Origin: Flavobacterium sp.
GTDB taxonomy: Bacteria > Bacteroidota > Bacteroidia > Flavobacteriales > Flavobacteriaceae
Assembly (NCBI RefSeq): GCF_020217025.1
Contig: NZ_JAIWOF010000047.1
Location: forward strand, 1 to 10,000
Direction: 5' to 3'
DNA: 10,000 nucleotides
In this document: positions 1 to 10,000 of the stretch, piece after piece
Layout of the letters: each line of letters begins with the position of its first letter
Position numbering within the stretch: position 1 is the stretch's first letter
Program-made: the position numbers and the translations under genes
Notes under the pieces: generated by a model
Told to the model about the DNA's origin: nothing
Seen by the model: only the letters and a program-made list of their open reading frames with translations
Database searches by the model: none

Positions 1-75
1 GATTGTATTCCTTCAAAAAATGATTTCATTTTGATAAAGTATTATATTTACACCACAAAAATATAAAATATTCGG

Positions 76-1005
76 ATGTTAGCAAGCATTTTTAGTAAAA
101 CAAGACCATTTAATTATTTAGTAGTAGGTATTTTATCGCTTTTTTTCTTTTCTGTAAAGATAATTGCGTTAGCACAACCTAATGCCGATTGGATTTATTA
201 TGCTGAAGAGTTTGGTTTATACGTGCTTCTTTTTGCTTCATTATTCATTTTAAATTTCATTACGCTTAAGAACGGATTAACCAAAGGAAACAATTATGCA
301 TTATTTTTATTCTTTGTTTTTCTTTTGTTCTTTTCCTCTATTTTCCAGAATAAAAACATCATTATTTCTAACTTTTTATTGCTTTTGGCATTAAGAAGAC
401 TAATTTCCTTGAAATCTTTATTGCAAACCAAAGAGAAAATTTTTGATGCTTCGTTTTGGATTTTCTTAGCAGCATTATTTCACTTTTGGAGTATTTTTTA
501 CATCATTTTGGTTTTTATTGCGGTTATTCTTCACGTTTCAAAAGATTACCGAAATTGGATTATTCCTTTCATCGCTTTGTTCGCCGTAACCATTTTGTTC
601 TTTCTAGCGAATAGTATTTTAGACAATACACTATTGAGTACACTGTTAGATAAAACGTATATCAGTTTTGATTTTTATTATTTCGAAAATGTTTACCAAC
701 GAATTGCTTTGGCCTTATTTACCTCAATAAGTTTATTTTTCTTTGTAACGCATGTTTTTGATTTACCAAACAAAGCTCTGAACATGCAATCGTCACACAA
801 AACGATTTTGTTTTCTTTTATTCTTGGAGTTGGAATTTATGTGCTTTCTGCAAATAAAAACAACGGGTGTTTAGCGTTTTGTTTCGGACCTTTAGCTATA
901 ATTGGCGCTAATTTTATTGAGAAAATTGAAAACAATTGGGTGAAAGAAATTGTGGTGTATGCCTTATTAGGTTTGGGAATTTTCTTCTTTATAATGCAAT
1001 TATAA
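76..1005 (+). CDS. Polytopic inner-membrane protein, DUF6427-like
   Basis: The 309-residue product is dominated by hydrophobic stretches. Rough membrane segments lie at residues 12-33, 46-64, 72-90, 125-155 (possibly two), 161-180, 208-228, 242-258, 264-280 and 289-307, so it is a multi-pass membrane protein with no cleavable signal peptide and no soluble domain. I see no catalytic motif. Size, hydrophobicity and position next to upp match a flavobacterial family of unknown function that I recall as DUF6427. The family name comes from memory, not a search. The ATG at 76 is the first in the frame. The 75 bases before it hold no promoter with correct spacing that I can defend. The stop codon abuts the upp stop codon on the other strand, so the two genes converge without a spacer. 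Function unknown. Confidence 0.85.
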   Translation: MLASIFSKTRPFNYLVVGILSLFFFSVKIIALAQPNADWIYYAEEFGLYVLLFASLFILNFITLKNGLTKGNNYALFLFFVFLLFFSSIFQNKNIIISNFLLLLALRRLISLKSLLQTKEKIFDASFWIFLAALFHFWSIFYIILVFIAVILHVSKDYRNWIIPFIALFAVTILFFLANSILDNTLLSTLLDKTYISFDFYYFENVYQRIALALFTSISLFFFVTHVFDLPNKALNMQSSHKTILFSFILGVGIYVLSANKNNGCLAFCFGPLAIIGANFIEKIENNWVKEIVVYALLGLGIFFFIMQL

Positions 1006-1653
1006 TTTAATTCCATAAGCTAAATCACCAGCATCGCCTAAGCCTGGAACAATGTAATTGTGCTCGTTTAGTTTTTCATCTAAAGCCGCTACCCATAAGT
1101 GACAATTTTCAGGAACGTTTTTCTCTAAGTATTCAATTCCTTCTGGAGTTGCAATCACAACCGCAATGTGAATTTCTTTAGGTTTTTGTTCCAAATGTAA
1201 TTTGTGTAAAACTGCCACTAAAGATTGTCCAGTAGCTAACATTGGATCAATTAAAATTAAATTTTTCCCTTCGAATGATGGCGCTGCTTGATATTCCACC
1301 AAAATTTCAAATTTGTCGTCGTTGTCATAATGATGACGATAAGCCGAAACAAATCCGTTTTCTGCGTTGTCAAAAAAGCTCATGAAGCCTTGATGTAGTG
1401 CTAAACCAGCGCGTAAAATCGAACATAAAACTACAGGTTCTGCAATAGTTGTTGTGTGTTTGATTCCAAGTGGTGTTTGCACATCAATGTTTTTGTAATC
1501 AAGTGTTTTACTTAATTCGTACGCCATTATTTCTCCAATGCGCTCAATATTTTTTCTGAATCGCATGCTGTCATTTTGGATGTTCACATCACGAATTTGC
1601 GCTAAAAAATGATTAAGAATACTGTTTTGTTCGGAGATATAATGAATGTGCAT
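1000..1653 (-). CDS. upp: Uracil phosphoribosyltransferase
   Basis: It makes UMP from uracil and PRPP (pyrimidine salvage, cytoplasm). From the chosen start the protein has 217 residues, close to the family's usual 208-220. The PRPP-binding loop DPMLATGQS is at residues 136-144, where many homologues have TGGS. The C-terminal uracil-binding motif YIVPGLGDAGD is at 200-210. CSILRAGLALHQG at 77-89 is also typical. The frame stays open to an ATG at 1689. I chose the ATG at 1653 (MHIHYISEQNS) because the 12 extra residues are lysine-rich and lie outside the family fold, and because they occupy the divergent promoter region. No convincing -7 element is visible on this strand. The only candidate is the T-run ending in TTTG near 1687-1692, which lacks the TA. 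The gene is divergent from the DUF4254 gene and convergent with the upstream membrane protein gene. Confidence 0.95.
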   Translation of the reverse strand: MHIHYISEQNSILNHFLAQIRDVNIQNDSMRFRKNIERIGEIMAYELSKTLDYKNIDVQTPLGIKHTTTIAEPVVLCSILRAGLALHQGFMSFFDNAENGFVSAYRHHYDNDDKFEILVEYQAAPSFEGKNLILIDPMLATGQSLVAVLHKLHLEQKPKEIHIAVVIATPEGIEYLEKNVPENCHLWVAALDEKLNEHNYIVPGLGDAGDLAYGIKL

Positions 1654-1697
1654 CGATTTTATTTTTTGTAATTCAGGATAAAAGTACAAAAAATCGC

Positions 1698-1705
1698 TAT
1701 TTTTG
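1698..1705 (+). promoter_or_regulatory. -7 promoter element for the DUF4254/GT9 unit
   Basis: TATTTTTG fits the Bacteroidota -7 consensus TAnnTTTG and ends 22 bases before the ATG at 1728. There is no TTG at the expected -33 distance; the nearest TTTG is 29 bases upstream at 1665-1668. Only the -7 half is therefore supported. Confidence 0.45.
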
Positions 1706-1727
1706 TATCAATTTAAAAGAGATAATT

Positions 1728-2333
1728 ATGTTTGCTGAATTTGCATTTCCCATTTTTGAACAAAGTATCAAAACGTATCACATTATTGACGATGTGTATC
1801 AACCTGTTGTAAATCCTTATGAAAAAGGAACTATTGAATATTTGTTGTTTGCAAAAAATTGGGTAGATACGGTGCAATGGCATTACGAAGATATCGTTCG
1901 TGACCCAAATATTGATCCAGTTGCAGCTTTAGATTTAAAACGTAAAATTGATGCTTCAAACCAAGTTCGTACGGATATGGTAGAGTACATCGATAGTTAT
2001 TTCTTGGATAAATACAAAGATGTTCAGGTAAAACCAAACGCAAAAATCAACACAGAAAGTCCAGCTTGGGCAATTGACCGTTTATCGATTTTAGCTTTGA
2101 AAATTTACCACATGAACGAAGAAGCAACTCGTGCTGAAGCTACGGCTGAACACAGAGCAAAATGTCAAGAAAAATTGAATGTATTGTTAGACCAAAAGAA
2201 CGATATGTTTACTTCAATTAGTCAATTAATTGAAGATATTGAAGCGGGTGACAAATACATGAAAGTTTATAAACAAATGAAAATGTACAACGACGAGGAG
2301 TTAAATCCGGTGTTGTATCAGAATAAAAAATAG
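1728..2333 (+). CDS. DUF4254-family protein of unknown function
   Basis: The 201-residue soluble protein has no signal peptide or membrane segment and looks largely helical. Conserved-looking segments are WHYEDIVRDP (51-60), the stretch TESPAWAIDRLSILALKIYH (109-128) and the C-terminal DIEAGDKYMKVYKQMKMYND (170-189). I recognise these as DUF4254, a Bacteroidota-enriched family with no established activity. The next gene, a GT9 glycosyltransferase, starts 11 bases after the stop codon on the same strand. The pair is therefore probably cotranscribed, and a role in assembling envelope glycans or lipopolysaccharide core is plausible by context only. The ATG at 1728 is the only reasonable start and follows a -7 promoter element. 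Confidence 0.87.
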   Translation: MFAEFAFPIFEQSIKTYHIIDDVYQPVVNPYEKGTIEYLLFAKNWVDTVQWHYEDIVRDPNIDPVAALDLKRKIDASNQVRTDMVEYIDSYFLDKYKDVQVKPNAKINTESPAWAIDRLSILALKIYHMNEEATRAEATAEHRAKCQEKLNVLLDQKNDMFTSISQLIEDIEAGDKYMKVYKQMKMYNDEELNPVLYQNKK

Positions 2334-2344
2334 TCATCAAATTG

Positions 2345-3382
2345 ATGTCTAAACCAAAACACATATTGGTAATAAGGCTCTCAGCCATGGGTGATGTCGC
2401 AATGACAGTTCCTGTGTTGAGAGCCTTAGTTTTGCAATATCCCGAAGTAAGAATCACAGTTGTTTCCCGACCTTTTTTTCAACCTTTTTTTAATGGAATT
2501 CCGAATGTGAATTTCTTTGGTGTGGATTTGAATAAACGTCACAAAGGTTTTATCGGATTACTTCGATTATTTTCCGATTTGCGAAAATTAAATATTGATG
2601 TAGTTGCTGATTTACACAATGTACTTCGCTCTAAAGTTGTTCGAATCTTATTCGCTTTAAGCGGAAAAAAAGTCGTAGCAACCGATAAAGGAAGAGCCGA
2701 AAAGAAAGCCTTAACAAGTTTGACTAATAAAGTTTTTGCTCCAGTTAAATCAATGGTCGACAGACATGTAGATACGTTCAAACAACTTGGATTTTCAATT
2801 GATTTATCGAATCCGCAATTTCCTGACAAAGCTATTTTATCAGAAGAAATTCTTTCCATTACGGGAGCTAAAAATCAAAATTGGATTGGAATTGCGCCTT
2901 TTGCTCAATATGAAAGTAAAGTGTATCCATTAGATTTAATGCAACAAGTAATAGATGGTTTAGCAGAAAATAAAAATCATAAAATCTTTCTGTTTGGTGG
3001 AGGAGAAAAAGAAATTCAATTACTGAATCAATTGCAAAACCAACATGATAACGTAATCGTTTTAGCTGGAAAACTAAAATTCAAACAAGAATTAGAAGTC
3101 ATTTCCAATTTAGATATCATGCTTTCCATGGATTCAGGAAATGCACATATAGCTGCGATGTTGGGCGTTAAAGTCATTACGCTTTGGGGAGCCACGCATC
3201 CTTATGCAGGTTTCAAACCATTCAATCAACCCGATGATTTTTGTTTGACTTCAGATAGAACTCAATATCCATTATTACCAACTTCTATTTACGGAAATAA
3301 AAAAGTTGAAGGTTATAAGGATGTGATGCGAACGATTTTGCCATCTCAAGTTATTGAAAAAATAAATTCCAATCTTACCTAG
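2345..3382 (+). CDS. GT9 glycosyltransferase (ADP-heptose:LPS heptosyltransferase-like)
   Basis: The 345-residue protein has the two-domain GT-B layout of glycosyltransferase family 9. The N-terminal motif VIRLSAMGDVAMTVPVLRAL is at 9-28. The second domain has FGGGEKE (217-223), LAGK (240-243) and the nucleotide-sugar binding segment from MDSGNAHIAAMLGV to LWGATHP (262-286). Known members transfer heptose from ADP-heptose to lipopolysaccharide inner core at the inner face of the cytoplasmic membrane. The actual sugar donor here cannot be read from sequence. A TTG at 2342 precedes the ATG at 2345; I chose the ATG, which gives MSKPKHILVIRLS. The tail at 307-330 (around LPTSIYGNKK) resembles the usual Cys-containing C-terminal segment of bacterial GT9 proteins, but its cysteines are absent. 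It probably shares a transcript with the DUF4254 gene. Confidence 0.92.
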   Translation: MSKPKHILVIRLSAMGDVAMTVPVLRALVLQYPEVRITVVSRPFFQPFFNGIPNVNFFGVDLNKRHKGFIGLLRLFSDLRKLNIDVVADLHNVLRSKVVRILFALSGKKVVATDKGRAEKKALTSLTNKVFAPVKSMVDRHVDTFKQLGFSIDLSNPQFPDKAILSEEILSITGAKNQNWIGIAPFAQYESKVYPLDLMQQVIDGLAENKNHKIFLFGGGEKEIQLLNQLQNQHDNVIVLAGKLKFKQELEVISNLDIMLSMDSGNAHIAAMLGVKVITLWGATHPYAGFKPFNQPDDFCLTSDRTQYPLLPTSIYGNKKVEGYKDVMRTILPSQVIEKINSNLT

Positions 3383-3397
3383 ATAAAATTGGAATTT
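3364..3397. terminator. Hairpin between convergent GT9 and reductase genes
   Basis: AAATTCCAAT (3364-3373) pairs perfectly with ATTGGAATTT (3388-3397) around a 14-base loop that contains the GT9 stop codon. Read on the minus strand the stem is followed by a T-rich run (TTATTTTTT), which suits termination of the reductase gene. On the plus strand the tail is AT-rich but not a clean T-run. A second copy of TTGGAATTT at 3410-3418 could pair instead. The stem is AT-rich, so the call is moderate. Confidence 0.45.
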
Positions 3398-3424
3398 AGA
3401 ATTTATTATTTGGAATTTCAACTA

Positions 3425-4477
3425 TTATACATCATCAAAATCTATCTTAATCGTAGCTGTTGTAGGATGCGCTTGACATGCTAACGTTAATCCTTCTGCG
3501 ATTTCAGCATCGGTTAAAATTTGGTTCTTTTTCAAGACCGCTTCTCCTTCTGTAATTCTACAAATACAACTGCTGCAAATTCCCCCTTGACAAGAATAGG
3601 GAACATCTAAACCTTGTTTCAACGCCGCTTCTAATAAAGTTTGCTTTTGACTCATTTCGAAAGTCGTTTCTTCATCATCAACTAAAATGGAAATTTTAGT
3701 GTGACCATCAGCGTTTGCAACGGTTTCTCCTTCGTTTGATGAGGTAGAGAATAATTCAAATTTAATATCTGAACTCGCAATATTATTTTCTTTCAATGTA
3801 TCCGAAACCAAATTGATCATCTCTTCAGGTCCGCATAAATAGAATTTTGAAAATTCCATTTCAGCATGTTTGTTTTTCAAGATGAAATTTACGGTTGATT
3901 TATCAATTCGACCAAACAAAGCATTATCAGCAGTGGATTGACTGTACACATATTGTACAAATAAACGTCCAACATATTGTAACTGTAAATCGTGTAATTG
4001 GTTGTGGAAAATGGTATCTTTTTCTGATTTATTTCCGTAAACCAATACAAAAGTACTGTTTGGTTCTTCTTCTAAAACCGATTTTAAAATCGAGTAAACA
4101 GGCGTAATTCCGCTACCAGCTACAAAAGCTGCGTAATTTTTCAGGCGTTCTGCTTTAGGTTCGAAAGTGAATTTTCCTTCTGGAGTTCCTACTTCGATTA
4201 CGTTTCCAACTGCTAATTTTTCATTGGCAAACTTAGAGAAGAAACCGTTTTGGATGGCTTTAACGGCAATTCGTAATTCGCCACTTTTTGGAGAAGAACA
4301 AATCGAATACGCTCTTCTAATTTCTTGTCCGTCAAGCGTAATTTTTAAGTTTACATATTGTCCAGCGACGAATTGATAATACGATTTTAATTCGTCTGGA
4401 ACATTAAAAAGAATCGAAACCGCATCGGCTGTTTCTTTGATGATTTCTTTAATGCTTAATTTATAAAAAGATGACAT
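3425..4477 (-). CDS. PaaE-like NAD(P)H:ferredoxin-type oxidoreductase with C-terminal 2Fe-2S domain
   Basis: The 350-residue electron-transfer protein has three modules in order. The first is an FAD-binding barrel with RRAYSICSSP at 54-63. The second is an NAD(P)-binding domain with GSGITPVYSIL (121-131) and CGPEEM (215-220). The third is a plant-type 2Fe-2S ferredoxin domain (about 261-350) with ligands C296, C301, C304 and C334 in C-x4-C-x2-C-x29-C spacing. This order matches PaaE, the reductase of phenylacetyl-CoA epoxidase, and related ferredoxin-NADP reductase-like proteins. Electrons would flow NAD(P)H to FAD to 2Fe-2S to a partner. No PaaABCD or other oxygenase gene is nearby, so the partner is unknown and I give no symbol. 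The ATG at 4477 lies 15 bases after a good -7 element. All key residues are present. Confidence 0.92.
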   Translation of the reverse strand: MSSFYKLSIKEIIKETADAVSILFNVPDELKSYYQFVAGQYVNLKITLDGQEIRRAYSICSSPKSGELRIAVKAIQNGFFSKFANEKLAVGNVIEVGTPEGKFTFEPKAERLKNYAAFVAGSGITPVYSILKSVLEEEPNSTFVLVYGNKSEKDTIFHNQLHDLQLQYVGRLFVQYVYSQSTADNALFGRIDKSTVNFILKNKHAEMEFSKFYLCGPEEMINLVSDTLKENNIASSDIKFELFSTSSNEGETVANADGHTKISILVDDEETTFEMSQKQTLLEAALKQGLDVPYSCQGGICSSCICRITEGEAVLKKNQILTDAEIAEGLTLACQAHPTTATIKIDFDDV

Positions 4478-4492
4478 GTGATTTATTTTTTA

Positions 4493-4525
4493 CAAAAATA
4501 AAAAAAAGAACCCGAAGGTTCTCAA
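4493..4525 (-). promoter_or_regulatory. Promoter of the PaaE-like reductase gene
   Basis: Read on the minus strand, TATTTTTG (4493-4500) fits TAnnTTTG and TTG (4523-4525) sits 22 bases upstream as a -33 element. The -7 ends 15 bases before the ATG. The spacer consists entirely of the terminator hairpin and T-run of the thioesterase gene, so both signals share the same bases. Confidence 0.6.
4501..4522 (-). terminator. Intrinsic terminator of the thioesterase gene with UUCG tetraloop
   Basis: On the minus strand AGAACC and GGTTCT form a perfect 6-bp stem around TTCG, giving the exceptionally stable C(UUCG)G tetraloop. A run of T follows directly. It begins 4 bases after the thioesterase stop codon. 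On the plus strand the same bases lack a T-tail, so it should act in one direction only. Confidence 0.85.
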
Positions 4526-4526
4526 T

Positions 4527-5039
4527 TTATTCTGTAAACAACGCTTTTAATTCTGTTGCTTCGCTTGGTTTCATTTTTCCGGCTAAGACTAAGCTTAGTT
4601 GTTTTCTTCTTAATGCTGCTTCGTAACGTTGTTTTTCAAGTTCGGTTTCTGGTTCAATTGGAGGAACTGGAATTGGTCTTCCCGTTTCGTCAACTGCAAC
4701 AAAAGTATAAATTGCTTCGTTTGCTTTGTTTTTAATTCCTGATTCTCGGTCTTCAATCCAAACATCAATAAAAATCTCCATTGATGTGTTGAATGTTCTT
4801 GAAACTTTAGATTCAACAGTAACTACACTTCCTAATGGAATAGCTCTGTTAAAAGCCACGTGATTCACAGATGCTGTTACACAAATTCTACGTGAGTGTC
4901 TTCTAGCAGTAATACTCGCTGCTCTATCCATACGAGCAAGCAATTCACCACCAAATAAATTGTTCAATGGATTCGTTTCACCTGGTAAAACTAAGTCGGT
5001 TAAAGTAGTTACCGATTCTGAAGGAAATTTTGGTTGCAT
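4527..5039 (-). CDS. Hotdog-fold acyl-CoA thioesterase (BACH/YciA type)
   Basis: The 170-residue cytoplasmic enzyme is expected to hydrolyse acyl-CoA to free acid and CoA. Family-typical segments are NPLNNLFGGELLARMDRAA (23-41), whose Asp38 and Asn residues sit where ACOT/YciA enzymes carry catalytic groups, then SVNHVAFNRAIPLGSVV (57-73) and the strand ending EAIYTFVAVDETGRPIPVP. Chain-length preference cannot be read. The frame is open to an upstream ATG at 5111. I chose the ATG at 5039 (MQPKFPSES) because the extra 24 residues are an atypical Phe/Lys-rich stretch. Those bases instead contain the -7 and -33 elements of this gene and the terminator of the gene before it. The gene is monocistronic by this reading, with terminators on both sides. 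Confidence 0.92.
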   Translation of the reverse strand: MQPKFPSESVTTLTDLVLPGETNPLNNLFGGELLARMDRAASITARRHSRRICVTASVNHVAFNRAIPLGSVVTVESKVSRTFNTSMEIFIDVWIEDRESGIKNKANEAIYTFVAVDETGRPIPVPPIEPETELEKQRYEAALRRKQLSLVLAGKMKPSEATELKALFTE

Positions 5040-5050
5040 TGTTTTTTTTG

Positions 5051-5085
5051 CAAAGATAAAGAGGAATTTGAAAATAAAATGCAAA
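5051..5085 (-). promoter_or_regulatory. Promoter of the thioesterase gene
   Basis: On the minus strand, TATCTTTG (5051-5058) matches TAnnTTTG and TTTG (5082-5085) lies 23 bases upstream. The -7 ends 11 bases before the ATG at 5039, predicting a leader of only a few bases. The -33 element lies in the T-tail of the preceding terminator. Confidence 0.6.
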
Positions 5086-5108
5086 AAAAAATCCCAAAAT
5101 TGGGATTT
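5083..5108 (-). terminator. Intrinsic terminator of the HU-CCDC81/SPOR gene
   Basis: On the minus strand AAATCCCA and TGGGATTT pair over 8 bp (ATTT loop), and the downstream arm continues into eight or more T. It starts about 30 bases past the stop codon at 5138. A palindrome plus a T-run on this strand is a standard Rho-independent terminator. Confidence 0.8.
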
Positions 5109-5137
5109 CAATAATTTTTATGCAAAGTGTTAAAAAT

Positions 5138-6079
5138 TTATTCGATTAACAACCAAGCTTCAGCATTGTGCGATTTTTGAATGTTTTTTCTTTCTGTTTG
5201 AGCCTCGTTTAAGTTTTTGAAACTTCCATAAACCACAGGATATAAGTTGTGTTTGTTCATTGGAAGCATCTTAGCATTTTCAAAACCAGTTGCTTTTAGT
5301 TCATTAATCGCTTTGTTAGCGTTTTCTTCACTTCTGTAAGCGCCAGCTACTAAATGATAAGGCATTTTTTCTTCAACTGGAGCGGCTACACTTAATTCAA
5401 CGGCTTCAACCGGAGCGCTAATTACAAAAGTTGCTTCTTGAATTTGTTGTTGTACTTTCTCTTGTACGTTTTTCTGAACTGCTAAAGTTTTAGTCTCAAT
5501 TTGTTGATCGTAATACGTTTTATATCCAAATCCACCAGCGCCCAACATCGTTACAAAAACAGCTGCATATTTCAAATACGAGTAATCTTTCTTTCTTTCA
5601 GGAGTAAAAATAATTGGTGCTTTTTCTTCTAAAGCTTCTACTTCTTGTTTTAAAATCTCTCTTGTAATTTCTGGAGAAACAAAAGGAGTTAATCCAAAAG
5701 AATCTGTTAAATAATTTACTGTATTCGCTGGTTCAAAAACCCAATTCATTTCATTATTTACCGAAATCTCACCAATGTTTTTCAACACCACACGATTGCG
5801 GTTTTGTAACAAATACGTCCATTCGTTCACCACATCACCAATTTTGATTACGGCTAACTCGTATGACATTTTTTCTTGTAATGCCACATGATTTGCCAAT
5901 AAACCATCATTGTTTTTTACATTCGCATTAAACGAAACCACTTTTTTAGGTGGAAAAAATGAACTTGCGCTTCCAGTAACGTGAGCGGACACAGTTTCAG
6001 TTAAAAACGCACCAAAGCCAGGAACAGTAACGCACTGATAACGATATAATAAGTCGGATATGTGTTTTTCTATCTGCAT
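5138..6079 (-). CDS. HU-CCDC81-like / SPOR-domain inner-membrane protein
   Basis: The 313-residue protein has three parts. The N-terminal region (about 1-115) starts IEKHISDLLYRYQCVTVPGFGAF and looks like the paired HU-like domains of bacterial CCDC81-related proteins. One membrane helix (about 168-187, YLKYAAVFVTMLGAGGFGY) follows a charged KKDYSYLK anchor. A short coiled or low-complexity linker then leads to a C-terminal SPOR domain (about 239-313, YHLVAGAYRSEENANKAI to YPVVYGSFKN). SPOR domains bind denuded peptidoglycan at division sites, so the protein probably sits in the inner membrane with SPOR in the periplasm and the HU-like part in the cytoplasm. That would link the cell wall to a cytoplasmic partner, possibly DNA; the DNA link is inference. 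It is divergent from dprA. The promoter ends 5 bases before the ATG, so the mRNA may be leaderless. Confidence 0.88.
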   Translation of the reverse strand: MQIEKHISDLLYRYQCVTVPGFGAFLTETVSAHVTGSASSFFPPKKVVSFNANVKNNDGLLANHVALQEKMSYELAVIKIGDVVNEWTYLLQNRNRVVLKNIGEISVNNEMNWVFEPANTVNYLTDSFGLTPFVSPEITREILKQEVEALEEKAPIIFTPERKKDYSYLKYAAVFVTMLGAGGFGYKTYYDQQIETKTLAVQKNVQEKVQQQIQEATFVISAPVEAVELSVAAPVEEKMPYHLVAGAYRSEENANKAINELKATGFENAKMLPMNKHNLYPVVYGSFKNLNEAQTERKNIQKSHNAEAWLLIE

Positions 6080-6084
6080 AACAA

Positions 6085-6115
6085 CAAAGTTAGATAATCA
6101 ATAGTAATATCAAAA
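6085..6115 (-). promoter_or_regulatory. Promoter of the HU-CCDC81/SPOR gene, probably leaderless
   Basis: On the minus strand, TAACTTTG (6085-6092) is an exact TAnnTTTG and TTTTG (6111-6115) is the -33 element with 18 bases between them. Only 5 bases separate the -7 from the ATG at 6079, so transcription should start at or within a base or two of the start codon. Confidence 0.65.
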
Positions 6116-6200
6116 TTTTATCAACAAAAATTATTAACAATTGCGGTTTTTACTGTAAATAATTGGAAGCGAATGGCTTGGACTTTCTTGGTTTCCTTGT

Positions 6201-6243
6201 ACCTGCTGTCCGCTTTACACGGTGCCGCTCCCATCAGGGCTAG
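6201..6243 (-). ncRNA. GC-rich structured intergenic element, flavo-1-like candidate
   Basis: In an AT-rich gap, 26 of the 40 bases at 6201-6240 are G or C, and no ORF covers them. On the minus strand the element reads CTAGCCCTGATGGGAGCGGC, then a short variable centre, then GCGGACAGCAGG. Pairing options include CCC/GGG around TGAT, CCTG/CAGG at the ends, and CCG/CGG in the centre. From memory this core (AGCCCTGAT..GAAGCGG..GCGGA(C/T)AGCAGG) recurs between genes across flavobacteria, usually with a longer hairpin in the centre. It may be the Rfam flavo-1 motif. The Rfam link is recall and the strand is inferred from that resemblance. The flanks at 6120-6200 and 6244-6262 hold nothing else I recognise. 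Confidence 0.5.
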
Positions 6244-6262
6244 TTAGCTTTCTATTTTCTTT

Positions 6263-6293
6263 TTTGGATTATTGCTAAAAAGAACTATTTTTG
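6263..6293 (+). promoter_or_regulatory. Promoter of dprA
   Basis: TTTG (6263-6266), 19 bases, then TATTTTTG (6286-6293) is a full match to the Bacteroidota -33/-7 consensus with ideal spacing. The -7 ends 37 bases before the ATG, predicting a leader of roughly 30 bases. Confidence 0.7.
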
Positions 6294-6302
6294 TTGTTCA
6301 AT

Positions 6303-6330
6303 TATACGCCAAATAAATTTTATATACGCC
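6303..6330 (+). repeat. Direct repeat TATACGCC in the dprA leader
   Basis: TATACGCC occurs at 6303-6310 and again at 6323-6330, a 20-base period. The second copy directly abuts the dprA ATG. Both lie downstream of the -7 element, so both should be in the 5' leader. It may be a chance duplication or a binding site; nothing in the sequence decides. Confidence 0.55.
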
Positions 6331-7434
6331 ATGACACAGTCAGAATTATACCACACGCTTGCGTTGATGCAAGTGGAAGGAGTAGGAGATGTAATCGCTA
6401 AAAAACTCCTCCAACATTGTGGAAACGCAGCAGAAGTCTTCGCTTCAAAAAAATCCCAACTTCAAAAAATTGACGGCATTGGTTCGGTTGTAATAAAAAA
6501 TTTACAAGACAAATCGGTATTTGCAAAAGCGGAAGCCGAACTCCAATTCATTGCACAAGAAAATATTTCCACTACTTATTTTCAAGACGAAAATTATCCT
6601 GAACGTTTAAAACACTGCTACGATAGTCCGGTACTTTTATTTCAAGCCGGAAATCTCGATTTACAAAACAAAAGAATCATTAGTATTGTCGGCACACGTC
6701 AAATCACGACGTATGGCATGGAATTTACTAAGAAATTGATTGAAGAAATATCCCCTTTAAATCCAATTATTGTTAGTGGTTTTGCTTATGGAGTTGATAT
6801 TTACGCGCATCAAATGGCAATGGATTGTGGTTTGCAAACCATAGGTGTTTTAGCGCATGGATTAAATCAAATTTATCCAAAAACTCATAAAAAGTACATG
6901 GCAAAAATGGAACAAAACGGCGGCTTTTTAACCGAATTTTGGAGCACCAGCAAACCTGATAAAGAAAATTTCATCAAACGAAATCGTATAGTTGCGGGCA
7001 TAAGCGAAGCTACCATCGTAATTGAAAGTGCCGAAAGAGGTGGTTCATTAGTCACGGCTAATTTAGCTAACGATTACAACCGAGATGTTTTCGCTGTTCC
7101 AGGAAGAACGACAGATAAGTATAGTCAAGGTTGCAATAATTTAATTAAAACACAACGCTCTAATTTGCTCACTTCGGCAGCAGATTTGGTTTATATTTTG
7201 AATTGGGAATTGCAGCGCGAATCTCAAAAAGTAATTCAAAAACAGTTGTTCGTTACCTTAACCGATGAAGAGCAAATCATTTACGATTACCTTCAAAAAG
7301 CAGGAAAAGAAATGATGGACATCATCGCATTAGAATGTGATTTTCCGATTTATCGCATTTCTTCTATTTTGTTAAATATGGAATTAAAAGGAGTGATTCG
7401 TCCTTTGCCAGGTAAAATGTTTGAGGTGGTTTAA
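6331..7434 (+). CDS. dprA: DNA-processing protein DprA
   Basis: The 367-residue cytoplasmic protein binds incoming single-stranded DNA during natural transformation and loads RecA. The N-terminal region (about 1-60, with VEGVGDVIAKKLL and IDGIGSVVIKNL) is helix-hairpin-helix-like. The Rossmann-like core (about 90-290) carries SIVGTRQIT (118-126), SGFAYGVD (149-156), NFIKRNRIVAG (213-223), ESAERGGSLVTA (232-243), DVFAVPG (252-258) and GCNNLI (267-272), all hallmark DprA/Smf segments. The C-terminal 60 residues (about 305-367) form the usual winged-helix domain. It is full length and intact. It is divergent from the SPOR gene and has its own consensus promoter. No T-run terminator follows; the palindromic repeat array begins 10 bases after the stop codon. 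Confidence 0.95.
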   Translation: MTQSELYHTLALMQVEGVGDVIAKKLLQHCGNAAEVFASKKSQLQKIDGIGSVVIKNLQDKSVFAKAEAELQFIAQENISTTYFQDENYPERLKHCYDSPVLLFQAGNLDLQNKRIISIVGTRQITTYGMEFTKKLIEEISPLNPIIVSGFAYGVDIYAHQMAMDCGLQTIGVLAHGLNQIYPKTHKKYMAKMEQNGGFLTEFWSTSKPDKENFIKRNRIVAGISEATIVIESAERGGSLVTANLANDYNRDVFAVPGRTTDKYSQGCNNLIKTQRSNLLTSAADLVYILNWELQRESQKVIQKQLFVTLTDEEQIIYDYLQKAGKEMMDIIALECDFPIYRISSILLNMELKGVIRPLPGKMFEVV

Positions 7435-7443
7435 ACGTTTTCT

Positions 7444-7515
7444 TGTCAAGCTGAACTTGTTTCAGCTTCTTGATAATTTGAAATGATTAGATCCTGAAAC
7501 GAGTTCAGGATGACA
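7444..7515. repeat. REPIN-like inverted pair, unit 1
   Basis: Two 27-base arms (left 7444-7470, right 7489-7515) are inverted copies of each other across an 18-base spacer. Each arm is itself a hairpin: left AAGCTGAA/TTCAGCTT with loop CTTGT, right ATCCTGAA/TTCAGGAT with loop ACGAG. The outer bases TGTCA and TGACA also pair. The right arm's reverse complement differs from the left at five positions. Four of these are compensatory changes inside the stem. Unit length is 72 bases. It starts 10 bases after the dprA stop codon. Confidence 0.9.
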
Positions 7516-7550
7516 GAAGTTTAGTTTATAAAAAATAATATCAGATAGTT

Positions 7551-7622
7551 TGTCAAGCTGAACTCGTTTCAGCTTCTCCGAATTTTAAAATAATTAGATT
7601 CTGAAACGAGTTCAGAATGACA
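7551..7622. repeat. REPIN-like inverted pair, unit 2
   Basis: It has the same architecture and 72-base length as unit 1, with left arm 7551-7577 (stem AAGCTGAA, loop CTCGT), an 18-base spacer, and right arm 7596-7622 (stem ATTCTGAA/TTCAGAAT, loop ACGAG). The left arm differs from unit 1's at a single loop base. The spacers of units 1 and 2 are alignable (about 11 of 18 bases), suggesting copies of one ancestral unit. The unit ends 14 bases before the GIY-YIG start codon, leaving little room for any other promoter. Confidence 0.9.
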
Positions 7623-7636
7623 AAACAATAAAAAAA

Positions 7637-7957
7637 ATGCCCTATAGAACTTATCATAATTATTGGGTTTATATTCTTACCAACAAACCAAAAGGCACAC
7701 TTTACATTGGTGTAACTGGCGGGTTAGATGATAGAATGGAACGACATGTAAATAAAGAAGGAAGCAAATTTACTTCGAAATATAATTTGAATATTCTAGT
7801 ATATTATGAAGAATTTCAGTTTATAAATGATGCAATTGCAAGGGAAAAACAACTAAAGAATTGGCATCGACAATGGAAAATTAATTTGATTGAAGCTTCT
7901 AATCCAAATTGGAAGAATCTGTGGAAACCATTAGATCCTGAAACGAGTTCAGGATGA
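7637..7957 (+). CDS. Small GIY-YIG (URI-type) endonuclease domain protein
   Basis: The 106-residue protein is a single GIY-YIG nuclease domain of the UvrC-N/URI type. The motif halves are VYILTN (11-16) and YIGVT (23-27). The catalytic arginine is R33 in the L-x2-R-x3-H pattern (L30, R33, H37), and the metal-binding glutamate is E70 in AREKQLKNWHR. The usual end LIEASNPNWKNL follows at 84-95. All active-site residues are present. The last residues, LDPETSSG, are encoded by an arm of the flanking palindromic repeat, which also supplies the TGA stop. Two direct-oriented arms bracket the gene (7596-7622 and 7933-7959). Proteins of this class are widespread in bacteria, and their cellular role is mostly unknown. 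No TAnnTTTG element is visible upstream. The context suggests a repeat-associated mobile or selfish gene, which is inference. Confidence 0.9.
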   Translation: MPYRTYHNYWVYILTNKPKGTLYIGVTGGLDDRMERHVNKEGSKFTSKYNLNILVYYEEFQFINDAIAREKQLKNWHRQWKINLIEASNPNWKNLWKPLDPETSSG

Positions 7958-7959
7958 CA
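7933..7959. repeat. Lone right-type palindromic arm overlapping the GIY-YIG 3' end
   Basis: This 27-base arm is identical to the right arm of unit 1 (stem ATCCTGAA/TTCAGGAT, loop ACGAG). It has no left partner within 100 bases on its 5' side because the coding region occupies that space. Read in the nuclease frame it encodes DPETSSG plus the TGA stop. Confidence 0.9.
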
Positions 7960-7993
7960 AGATTCGTGTATAAAAATGGCGTAATATTATGTT

Positions 7994-8060
7994 TGTCAAG
8001 CTGAACTTGTTTCAGCTTCTTGTTTATGTATGGAGATTCCGAAACAAGTTCGGAATGACA
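7994..8060. repeat. REPIN-like inverted pair, unit 3
   Basis: The left arm, 7994-8020, is identical in all 27 bases to the left arm of unit 1. After a 13-base spacer comes the right arm, 8034-8060, with stem ATTCCGAA/TTCGGAAT and loop ACAAG. The right arm is the fourth stem variant in the array and is still perfectly self-complementary. Unit length is 67 bases. Confidence 0.9.
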
Positions 8061-8091
8061 AGAAGACGTCTAGAGTTATTATTTGGAAATT

Positions 8092-8110
8092 TGAACTCGT
8101 TTCAGCTTCT
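8092..8110. repeat. Decayed left-type palindromic arm
   Basis: The last 19 bases match the 3' part of the left arm of unit 2 (TGAACTCGT then TTCAGCTTCT). The preceding 8 bases have diverged, so the stem cannot form fully. No right partner follows. It looks like an eroded copy. Confidence 0.7.
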
Positions 8111-8117
8111 CTAAATT

Positions 8118-8152
8118 TTTGGCTTATTTTTTGATTGAAATTCCTAAATTTA
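8118..8152 (+). promoter_or_regulatory. Possible promoter of the lipoprotein gene
   Basis: TTTG (8118-8121), 23 bases, then TAAATTTA (8145-8152), one mismatch from TAnnTTTG. It ends 4 bases before the ATG at 8157, so the mRNA would be leaderless. The mismatch and long spacer make this weak. Confidence 0.3.
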
Positions 8153-8156
8153 AAAC

Positions 8157-8801
8157 ATGAAAAAAGCACTTAGCATTATAACTATAGTTTTGTTTTTCTT
8201 CTCTTGCTCCGAGAAAGAAAAATCCTATGAAGAATTAGAAGCGGAAGTTTTGTGCGATGTGTTGCCGGAAATTGCAAAATTAGAGATTAAAAGTTTTCTC
8301 AGATTAGGAGTTGTTATTCCACCACCAGAACTTGACAAACTAAATTATACTAATAAACAGATTGATAGTATTAAAAAAGTAGAATATAATGATTGGGAAA
8401 AGTATAAAAGAATAAGAAAAGAAAAATCTGATAGTATAATTAATTTGGTTGAAAAATTTAAACGAATTGAATTTGGAATTTTAGATACTCTAAGAGATGT
8501 TGAAAAATTAAAATTTGATAAGAGTATTTATAAATTTAATAGTTTAGATTTTAGAGGTGTTGATTTAAAAGAATTTGAAAAATGTAATCTAAAAATTAAC
8601 TTAGTAAATTATAAAAACACATTTGAGGGAGAAGATAGAAATTCAAACAATCCTTTAGTTTTTTTAACTCGAGTACTTATTGATGAGAATGAAGAAAAAG
8701 CATTTTTTTCTGTATTAAAAATGTATGGAACATATCATGTGTTTTGTAATTTATCAGTAAAGGAAAATAAATGGAAGATTGAAAAGATTATTAAAGAATA
8801 A
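8157..8801 (+). CDS. Uncharacterised lipoprotein
   Basis: The 214-residue protein begins with a lipoprotein signal peptide: MKKA, a hydrophobic core IITIVLFFF, and the lipobox end FFSC with the lipidated cysteine at residue 17. The mature N-terminus is C-S-E-K-E-K-S, charged and acidic, somewhat like Bacteroidota lipoprotein export signals, so a surface location is possible but unproven. The middle (60-130) is lysine-rich and probably helical. The C-terminal part (about 165-214, FLTRVLIDENEEKAFFSVL then KENKWKIEKI) looks like a small beta-sheet domain seen in many Bacteroidota lipoproteins. I recognise no enzymatic motif. Its codons are more AT-rich than those of dprA. It is convergent with the next gene, and the two share a terminator. 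Function unknown. Confidence 0.82.
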   Translation: MKKALSIITIVLFFFSCSEKEKSYEELEAEVLCDVLPEIAKLEIKSFLRLGVVIPPPELDKLNYTNKQIDSIKKVEYNDWEKYKRIRKEKSDSIINLVEKFKRIEFGILDTLRDVEKLKFDKSIYKFNSLDFRGVDLKEFEKCNLKINLVNYKNTFEGEDRNSNNPLVFLTRVLIDENEEKAFFSVLKMYGTYHVFCNLSVKENKWKIEKIIKE

Positions 8802-8840
8802 AAAACCTCAAAATTTAGACATCTAAACTTTGAGGTTTTT
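8801..8840. terminator. Bidirectional terminator shared by convergent genes
   Basis: AAAAACCTCAAA (8801-8812) pairs with TTTGAGGTTTTT (8829-8840) over 12 bp. After one A/C mismatch, TTTAG/CTAAA adds 5 bp around an ACAT loop. A-tracts at the base give T-runs on both strands. The lipoprotein stop codon ends at the first stem base, and the stop and last codons of the minus-strand gene lie within the stem. Confidence 0.85.
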
Positions 8841-9392
8841 CTTTATTTTTAATTCTGTTTCAATATCTGTTGGCATTAACATCCGATCTTTAAAACTTAT
8901 TTTAAAATCATAATCGATTTTGTATAATTTTAAAATAGTATCTAATTCCTGTTTGTCGTCTGTGTTCTTTTTGCTATCAAAACGATGTCTATTCAAGGCA
9001 CCAAAAGCATAACCAAGCAAAACAACCGCAATACAAATAAAAATTATTATTATTGATGAGGCTATAAATATAGGTTTACCACTTGCTTTACTTAAAATGT
9101 TTGCGATATAATCGTTGGATTTATAGGTAAAAAGAAACATAGCCAGACTCATAATTAAGTAAACTATAAAATAAGAATACACCCATTTCTTTTCTCTTTT
9201 CGTTTTTTGAAAAGCGATGTTAACTTCTGTTATCTTTTTTTCAAGATTTTCATTAAATGAAATCTTATCGCAGAATCCATCAAAATTTGGATTTTTGTTA
9301 GTCAAACTGCAAAAAACTCCAATTTCAAGATTTTGTGATTTATTTTTACACAATTCACAATGCTTAAAGAGTTTTTTGGAGTTTTCATTCAT
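8823..9392 (-). CDS. Uncharacterised four-cysteine, two-helix membrane protein
   Basis: The 189-residue protein has an N-terminal cytoplasmic-looking Cys cluster: C12-x2-C15, C28 in GVFCSLTNKNPNF, and C41 in GFCDK. This C-x2-C-x12-C-x12-C pattern with G-x2-C-x-L-T-x3-P-x-F resembles a short putative metal-binding module I have seen in other Bacteroidota proteins. Zinc or Fe-S binding is inference. Two membrane helices follow at about 70-90 and 107-133, joined by a short loop, then a charged tail of about 55 residues. No enzymatic motif is seen. It starts 16 bases after the trpS stop codon on the same strand with no clear promoter, so it is probably read through from trpS. Its last codons form part of the shared terminator hairpin. 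Function unknown. Confidence 0.8.
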   Translation of the reverse strand: MNENSKKLFKHCELCKNKSQNLEIGVFCSLTNKNPNFDGFCDKISFNENLEKKITEVNIAFQKTKREKKWVYSYFIVYLIMSLAMFLFTYKSNDYIANILSKASGKPIFIASSIIIIFICIAVVLLGYAFGALNRHRFDSKKNTDDKQELDTILKLYKIDYDFKISFKDRMLMPTDIETELKIKKNLKV

Positions 9393-9408
9393 GTGTAAAA
9401 GATGTAAA

Positions 9409-10000
9409 TTAATATCCCAACTTCTCTCTAACTCTTTTCAAAACACCATTTGCTACTGCACTTGCTTTTGCGGCACCTTCGAGTAATAATTTATCTACTT
9501 CTTCTAAGTTGTTACTGTAGTAATTGTATTTTTCTCTTTCGGTTTTGAATTTTTCAACGATTAATTCAAATAAGGCTTGTTTCGCGTGACCGTAGCCGTA
9601 ATTTCCTGCTTCGTATTTGGCACGTAAATCAGCAACTTCTTCCGTAGAACCTAATAATTTGTATAATGCAAACACGTTACAAGTATCTGGATTTTTTGGT
9701 TCTTCTAGCGGTGTGCTATCGGTTTCAATTGTTTTGATTTGTTTAAGTAACGCTTTATCGTCTAAAAAGATATTGATAAAATTGTTTCTCGATTTACTCA
9801 TTTTTTGTCCGTCTGTTCCCGGAATAATCATGATTTGCTCATCGATTTTCGCTTCAGGCAATACAAACGTTTCGCCCATTTGGTGATTGAATCTCGAAGC
9901 TACATCACGCGTAATTTCTAAATGTTGCAATTGGTCTTTTCCAACAGGAACAAAGTTGGCATCATACAATAAAATATCGGCTGCCATTAACATTGGATAC
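9409..10000 (-). CDS. trpS: Tryptophanyl-tRNA synthetase, C-terminal part (cut by window edge)
   Basis: The enzyme charges tRNA-Trp with tryptophan (class I aminoacyl-tRNA synthetase, cytoplasm). The frame is open to the window edge and begins YPMLMAADILLYDANFVPVG, followed by KDQLQHLEITRD, the highly conserved TrpS centre. The class I signature KMSKS is encoded at 9790-9804 (DGQKMSKSRNN). The C-terminal tail after it is helical, as expected (YGYGHAKQALFELIVEKF, then VREKLGY at the end). About 196 residues are visible of a protein that usually has about 320-330. The HIGH motif and start lie beyond base 10000. The ATG at 9993 is internal, not the start, because conserved residues precede it. 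Confidence 0.95.
   Translation of the reverse strand, partial: YPMLMAADILLYDANFVPVGKDQLQHLEITRDVASRFNHQMGETFVLPEAKIDEQIMIIPGTDGQKMSKSRNNFINIFLDDKALLKQIKTIETDSTPLEEPKNPDTCNVFALYKLLGSTEEVADLRAKYEAGNYGYGHAKQALFELIVEKFKTEREKYNYYSNNLEEVDKLLLEGAAKASAVANGVLKRVREKLGY

Follow-up and report, generated by a model that had tools for sequence, protein, structure and literature searches.

The 10,000-nucleotide stretch of Flavobacterium sp. DNA analysed here (contig NZ_JAIWOF010000047.1, positions 1 to 10,000; hereafter the window) carries a small GIY-YIG nuclease gene inside an array of short hairpin repeats, termed arms, and comparison with related loci suggests that the protein and the arms are probably a cognate nuclease–target pair of the Ssn kind. 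GIY-YIG nucleases of the Ssn family reportedly cut single-stranded DNA at NTS repeats in Neisseria, and the same study, from the Veyrier laboratory, is said to have predicted targets for thousands of homologues, each member having its own repeat. On that account, the window pair would belong to a kind already described, and the outward-foot layout of arm, gene and arm, the stop codon lying within an arm and the insertion polymorphism presented below may go beyond it. The features of the window are as follows.

6331..7434, dprA, left of the array (Pfam scan)
7443..7470, + strand, hairpin arm F1, GTC foot on the left (arm search, folding)
7489..7516, − strand, hairpin arm R1, partner of F1 in the REPIN-like unit 7443-7516 (arm search, folding)
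7550..7577, + strand, hairpin arm F2 (arm search, folding)
7596..7623, − strand, hairpin arm R2; the pair 7550-7623 lies immediately upstream of the nuclease gene (arm search, folding)
7637..7957, + strand, intact single-domain GIY-YIG nuclease gene, 106 aa (PF01541, invariant residues, structure model)
7933..7960, − strand, hairpin arm R3, single, holding the last residues of the nuclease (DPETSSG) and its stop codon
7993..8020, + strand, hairpin arm F3 (arm search, folding)
8034..8061, − strand, hairpin arm R4, CCGAA variant; pair 7993-8061 (arm search, folding)
8083..8110, + strand, decayed arm F4, lacking the foot and the left stem (arm search, folding)
9409 to the end of the window, − strand, trpS, right of the array

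The nuclease gene is intact, as the original prediction had claimed, its reading frame being open and the residues R33 and E70 both invariant. Its product matches PF01541 at 60.1 bits (cut-off 22.6), no other Pfam family reaching E 0.001, and the catalytic-type residues Y12, Y23, R33 and E70 do not vary in alignments of 36 and 28 rows. The AlphaFold model of the protein (pLDDT 85.6) found its best PDB match by Foldseek in the UPF0213 protein BH0048 (1zg2; E 2.8e-4, with a sequence match at E 6.5e-5) and weaker ones in Slx1 (E 0.011) and the UvrC GIY-YIG domain (E 0.8), indicating a common fold. UvrC and Slx1 have additional domains, unlike the single-domain window protein, and we know of no cognate repeats for UPF0213, Slx1 or UvrC. 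A homologue in Neisseria gonorrhoeae is 49% identical to the window protein over 86 aa, and its ORF is presumably the SsnA orthologue.

F arms have the GTC foot on the left and R arms on the right, and the arm coordinates confirm the earlier count of seven full arms and one decayed arm, arranged as three inverted pairs and one single arm within 667 bases. The window arms have the sequence GTCANNCTGAACTYGTTTCAGNNTCT or near variants, with the consensus GTC A NN CTGAA CTYGT TTCAG NN T CT or its complement and CCGAA/TTCGG in one of them. Seven of the eight fold into 8-bp stems closed by loops of 5 nt (−5.7 to −6.9 kcal/mol, z −3.1 to −4.4); no significant DNA hairpin was obtained for the eighth, decayed arm at 8083-8110 (z 0.26). 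The 2.53-Mb draft genome holds 22 exact TGAACTYGTTTCAG cores, and since seven of these (counting the core of the decayed arm and leaving out the CCGAA arm at 8034-8061) fall in the 667 bp of the array, where 0.006 are expected (Poisson P about 4e-20), the array is not due to chance. The reversed pattern, used as a control in the same genome, occurred nowhere exactly and twice at one mismatch.

The arms are selected hairpins of 8–9 bp with a 5′ GTC foot, the stem of which is kept by compensatory changes. Thirty arms of this genome were picked by their inner core and not by outer pairing; of these, 28 are Watson–Crick at the second variable stem pair, with all four pair types in use, and 29 at the third, and none of 10000 shuffles matched the observed pairing at either position. 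The GTC foot is kept in 27 of these 30 arms, and the base opposite its C is unpaired. The conserved foot, the stem covariation and the three inverted pairs of the window are the traits by which REP/REPIN elements are recognised, namely a hairpin with a conserved foot that occurs in inverted pairs.

The final codons of the gene (LDPETSSG and stop) are the arm at 7933-7960 read in frame, a detail absent from the original prediction. Among the best 120 of at least 7996 homologous proteins, 41 end in DPE[TIM][SN]SG, others end in DSETSSE, DAETSSA or DTETSSV, which represent the same arm frame with different stem bases, and some lack an arm-type C-terminus. A strict arm contains the stop codon at 13 of 223 loci.

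The pairing of gene and hairpin recurs widely. We collected 233 GIY-YIG loci, comprising 138 from Flavobacteriaceae (part of the matches listed), 15 from plasmid-collection records and 80 from GTDB species genomes, the last being the best 80 of at least 571 confirmed loci ranked by similarity to an Aeromonas protein and not a random sample. Where full flanks were available, a strict GTC-foot hairpin stood within 400 bp of the gene at 64 of 71 GTDB loci (among the best 80 of at least 571; many phyla, mostly Proteobacteria), 12 of 15 loci from plasmid-collection records and 53 of 133 from Flavobacteriaceae. The control feet CTG, GCT, TGC and CGT were found at 1–2, 0–1 and 0–3 loci of these three sets, respectively; GAC, which as the reverse complement of GTC is not a clean control, was found at 10 of 71, 1 of 15 and 21 of 133. 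An earlier pass with another distance setting had placed a strict arm within 500 bp at 62 of 125 loci. In GTDB loci, the 100 bp next to the gene hold arms at a density of 57 per 10 kb, which is down to about 1 at distances above 500 bp. The earlier statement that single-domain GIY-YIG genes of other phyla adjoin short palindromes is borne out by the GTDB loci. Arms resembling GTCATTCCCGCGAAGGCGGGAATC lie beside the gene in Burkholderiales, Gammaproteobacteria, Planctomycetes, Deltaproteobacteria, Berkelbacteria, Omnitrophota and Calditrichaeota, and arms resembling GTCATGCTGAACTTGTTTCAGCAT in Sphingomonas and Colwellia, and the N. gonorrhoeae homologue sits among dRS3-type arms (ATTCCC N8 GGGAAT) with a GTC foot; at an Anaerolineae locus, no arms were found beside the gene.

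Arms were typed with our own regular expressions, relaxed-foot arms being admitted up to 120 bp from the gene, and 143 of the 233 loci received a type (A, 49; B, 74; C, 11; D, 6; E, 3). In Flavobacteriaceae, 70 of the 138 loci were untyped, 60 of them less than 55% identical to the window protein. A different GTC repeat of known-looking form occurs at 20 of the untyped loci, and at the remaining 50 none of the tested repeats was found. Loci at least 70% identical to the window protein were armed in 10 of 11 cases. As a separate observation, six loci without a typed arm (L096, L107, L109, L118, L123 and L140) have a hairpin with a 17–23 bp stem approximately 63–77 bp upstream of the gene match.

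Arm type goes with the nuclease lineage and not with the host genome. On a FastTree tree of the 143 short proteins, which leaves out the 90 untyped loci (the frameshifted copy in the relative G229, L199, was set aside by rule), arm type changes 14 times, compared with a mean of 58.3 and a minimum of 49 in 1000 shuffles, and 126 of the 143 agree in arm type with their closest protein from another genome. Thirteen genomes contain two or more typed loci, and 11 of these contain more than one arm type. In those 11 genomes, 21 of 27 loci match the arm type of the nearest foreign protein, whereas the frequency with which sibling loci of one genome agree in type is 0.07, which argues against a mere host effect. 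This match within genomes is the strongest sign of specific recognition.

In the usual layout, the gene occupies the spacer of what would otherwise be a bare arm pair: F-gene-R, with the GTC feet outward, accounts for 57 of the 84 loci with strict arms on both sides, so that the REPIN-like arrangement described for the window holds more generally. The two type-A arms flanking a gene had the same outer stem in 1 of 18 cases (expected 5.4, p 0.0015 by shuffling), and type-A pairs on the flanks in 1 of 17 (expected 2.4, not significant); for type B, the outer stem was the same in 21 of 25 cases around genes and in 12 of 15 on flanks. A fixed left and right arm identity was not seen in type A, in which the two arms merely differ in outer stem.

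Relatives differ by gain or loss of the gene and its arms, with presence in some genomes and absence in others at four sites of the gene and one of an arm pair. Between dprA and trpS, where the original prediction had proposed to look for empty sites, G229 (DprA 92%) carries arms and, in the corresponding position, a GIY-YIG gene broken by a frameshift, and in the nearest relative, G210 (DprA 97%), the arms, the GIY-YIG gene and the next ORF are all missing; no clean breakpoint was seen, the flanks having diverged. Because the closer relative lacks everything and the more distant one has it, loss fits as well as gain. The downstream pair of the window (7993-8061), with its flank, stands upstream of the gene in G229 (93% identity over 88 nt), and this position on the opposite side of the gene indicates that arms also recombine locally. 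At the arm-pair sites compared with G210 and G229, no exact breakpoints or target-site duplication were found, the intergenic flanks being too diverged. The window ORF at 8157-8801, lipoprotein-like and without a Pfam match, is missing in G210 along with the GIY-YIG gene.

In Azospirillum lipoferum, arm pairs and the gene lie between sufB and sufC, and four relatives lack both arms and gene at this site, three of them with flanks 95–96% identical and the fourth with flanks 91% identical. Outward arms flank the gene in one group of Sphingobium strains; at the same site, TYG64 has one fused arm, TYG74 a variant of it and TYG72 none, and the gene-less site could be an older target or a deletion scar. 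Of four Sphingobium strains, two carry an arm pair at a site near fixI. Comparison of four Sphingobium stretches of 50 kb gave no target duplication or clean breakpoint, their intergenic flanks being too diverged. In a Sinorhizobium relative, the arms are present and the gene is absent. A further repeat, with the core CTGAGCTTGTCGAAG, adjoins or replaces arms near position 1550 of locus L022 (contig C238 of this genome, G000) and at the fixI site of TYG74 (L326).

We propose the following scenario for the window pair. The nuclease would recognise the folded arm in single-stranded DNA, as exposed on the lagging strand or during uptake in transformation, and would cut at or near the GTC foot. 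With less certainty, annealing or recombination at further arms after such cutting may copy or move the arm-bounded unit as well as bare pairs, in which case the gene would be a selfish element and the bare arm pairs its non-autonomous copies. Extended to other phyla, the suggestion would be that GIY-YIG genes bounded by two outward-footed hairpins of their own site type are widespread minimal mobile elements, bare pairs being non-autonomous and gene and arm type passing jointly between phyla, with a second small GIY-YIG group apparently doing something similar at tRNA 3′ ends; this we put forward tentatively, as a reading rather more apt to fail than to hold. The layout, the specificity within genomes, the Y1 control described below and the cases of presence and absence favour mobility of the unit, short of proof.

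The alternative that fares best is that the pair serves the host, the nuclease trimming or limiting incoming single-stranded DNA at the repeats and so tuning transformation, and the repeats not being mobile; we consider this a genuine possibility, if somewhat doubtful as the whole account. Such a role reportedly belongs to Ssn and NTS in Neisseria meningitidis, and we take the dRS3 repeats to be, or to include, NTS. The high number of dRS3 copies, 646–725 per meningococcal genome for these neisserial intergenic mosaic elements with the pattern ATTCCC N8 GGGAAT (PMC3898611), would suit a service to the host. However, the patchy gain and loss and the frameshifted copy in G229 look selfish rather than adaptive, as do the sufB–sufC gene present in one Azospirillum and missing in four aligned relatives and the resemblance of gene-adjacent arm types between phyla. 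Service to the host and selfish spread are compatible and can both hold.

Arm number rises with the presence of the gene, as the original prediction had anticipated, but arms also occur in some genomes without it. In 199 Flavobacteriaceae genomes from 198 genera, with a good match defined as E 1e-15 or better, exact type-A arms averaged 10.5 in the 35 genomes known to have a type-A-armed gene; the mean was 3.9 for the 53 remaining genomes with a good homologue, 1.05 for 37 with a weak match only and 0.96 for 74 with no match. Four or more arms were present in 46 of 88 genomes with a good match, compared with 7 of the 111 others, and no exact type-A arm was found in 26 of the 88. Arm-bearing genomes with no GIY-YIG match include G070, G164, G051 and G059, with 25, 17, 7 and 6 arms, respectively, and among the 61 genomes of the genus, 10 arms occur in G210, which has only a 50%-identity GIY-YIG homologue, and five and three in G223 and G199, respectively, neither of which has a GIY-YIG match.

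These genomes also bear on whether another enzyme, of the REP-associated Y1 type, or host recombination spreads the repeats, the GIY-YIG gene merely riding in repeat-rich spacers, which we regard as improbable. Y1-domain genes occur in 73 of the 199 family genomes, with two in this genome (contigs C167 and C70), the 88 good-match genomes contain more arms with Y1 than without (8.62 vs 4.33, p 0.006), and the local shuffling of the window pair relative to G229 looks like recombination. On the other hand, Y1 does not raise the number of arms in the 111 genomes without a good GIY-YIG match (0.89 with, 1.02 without), whereas the 126 Y1-negative genomes have 4.33 arms with a GIY-YIG gene and 1.02 without (p 2e-8), both p-values overstating independence because the genomes sampled are kin. 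No arm was found at any of nine Y1 loci, including both of this genome (that on C70 is at the very end of its contig), and a passive rider leaves the separate arm types of two GIY-YIG genes in one genome unexplained. A RAYT is thus unlikely as the driver of the arms, Y1 alone being without effect and its loci armless, and the earlier remark that the window enzyme is not a Y1 transposase agrees both with these loci and with GIY-YIG being its only Pfam family. Proximity, arm typing, abundance and the Y1 control together uphold the association of GIY-YIG gene and palindromes as a specific pair and not one of chance neighbours.

That the arms are transcription terminators or mRNA-processing hairpins to which the nuclease is unrelated is very improbable, since, mostly intergenic hairpins though they are, with one bare pair even sitting inside the loop that a terminator-like stem closes (AAAGCTGAGTAAAA ... 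TTTTACTCAGCTTT; L011 1440-1680, contig C107 of this genome), no T-run was found 3′ of the window arms, a scan of the window gave no Rfam family at gathering score, arm density drops steeply away from the gene and arm type follows the nuclease.

Among known systems, Ssn and NTS resemble the window in combining a single-domain GIY-YIG protein with dispersed hairpin repeats beside its gene, and the window offers marks of that family: 49% identity to the Neisseria protein, 22 genomic cores of which seven lie near the gene, and an arm type that follows the protein. The two differ in arm sequence, the window core being CTGAACTYGTTTCAG, and cutting in the window is predicted. The REP/REPIN elements with their RAYT enzymes share with the window short fixed-foot hairpins, inverted pairs, a repeat-flanked enzyme gene and lineage-specific arms; unlike the window, with its GIY-YIG nuclease and GTC foot, they depend on a Y1 (HUH) transposase, and the RAYT tetranucleotide foot differs from GTC. 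The dRS3-type repeats at the Neisseria homologue have the same GTC foot as the window arms, and the dRS3 pattern ATTCCC N8 GGGAAT is not fitted by the window arms, being found only at Neisseria loci and in some other type-B arms. Among the titles and abstract openings searched, no paper was found that joins GIY-YIG genes with dispersed palindromes.

Short palindromes of this kind can be very numerous, as the dRS3 copy number shows. The tracking of a small nuclease by arm type across phyla provides a candidate enzyme for each repeat family, and the matched and mismatched pairs of nuclease and hairpin, several of them in one genome, are material for specificity tests. If the mobile-element reading is true, the GIY-YIG enzyme would be for dRS3-like and other GTC-foot repeats what RAYT is for REPs, and the recurrence of gene and hairpin hints at how such repeats persist and spread.

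A second putative group of small GIY-YIG genes, with more distant matches, was observed at tRNA 3′ ends; a literature search listed only an unrelated fungal paper. In this genome (contig C93; L031 1-800), such a gene lies just 3′ of tRNA-Met, amid copies of the 3′ half of the tRNA. Among 11 distant-match loci (10 fetched and that of this genome), seven have the gene beside a tRNA or a tRNA 3′ half according to ARAGORN or the motif, and L333 is an eighth from the reading of its repeats, the full set being L328, L329, L331, L332, L333, L334, L335 and the C93 locus, with tRNAs for Met, Val, Ala and Pro. The group parallels the main pairing of gene and hairpin, and its unit looks like a tiny element aimed at tRNA 3′ ends with the nuclease as its sole gene. 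These genes often stand in tandem units of approximately 350–390 bp, in which each gene is followed by a hairpin and then by a tRNA 3′ half.
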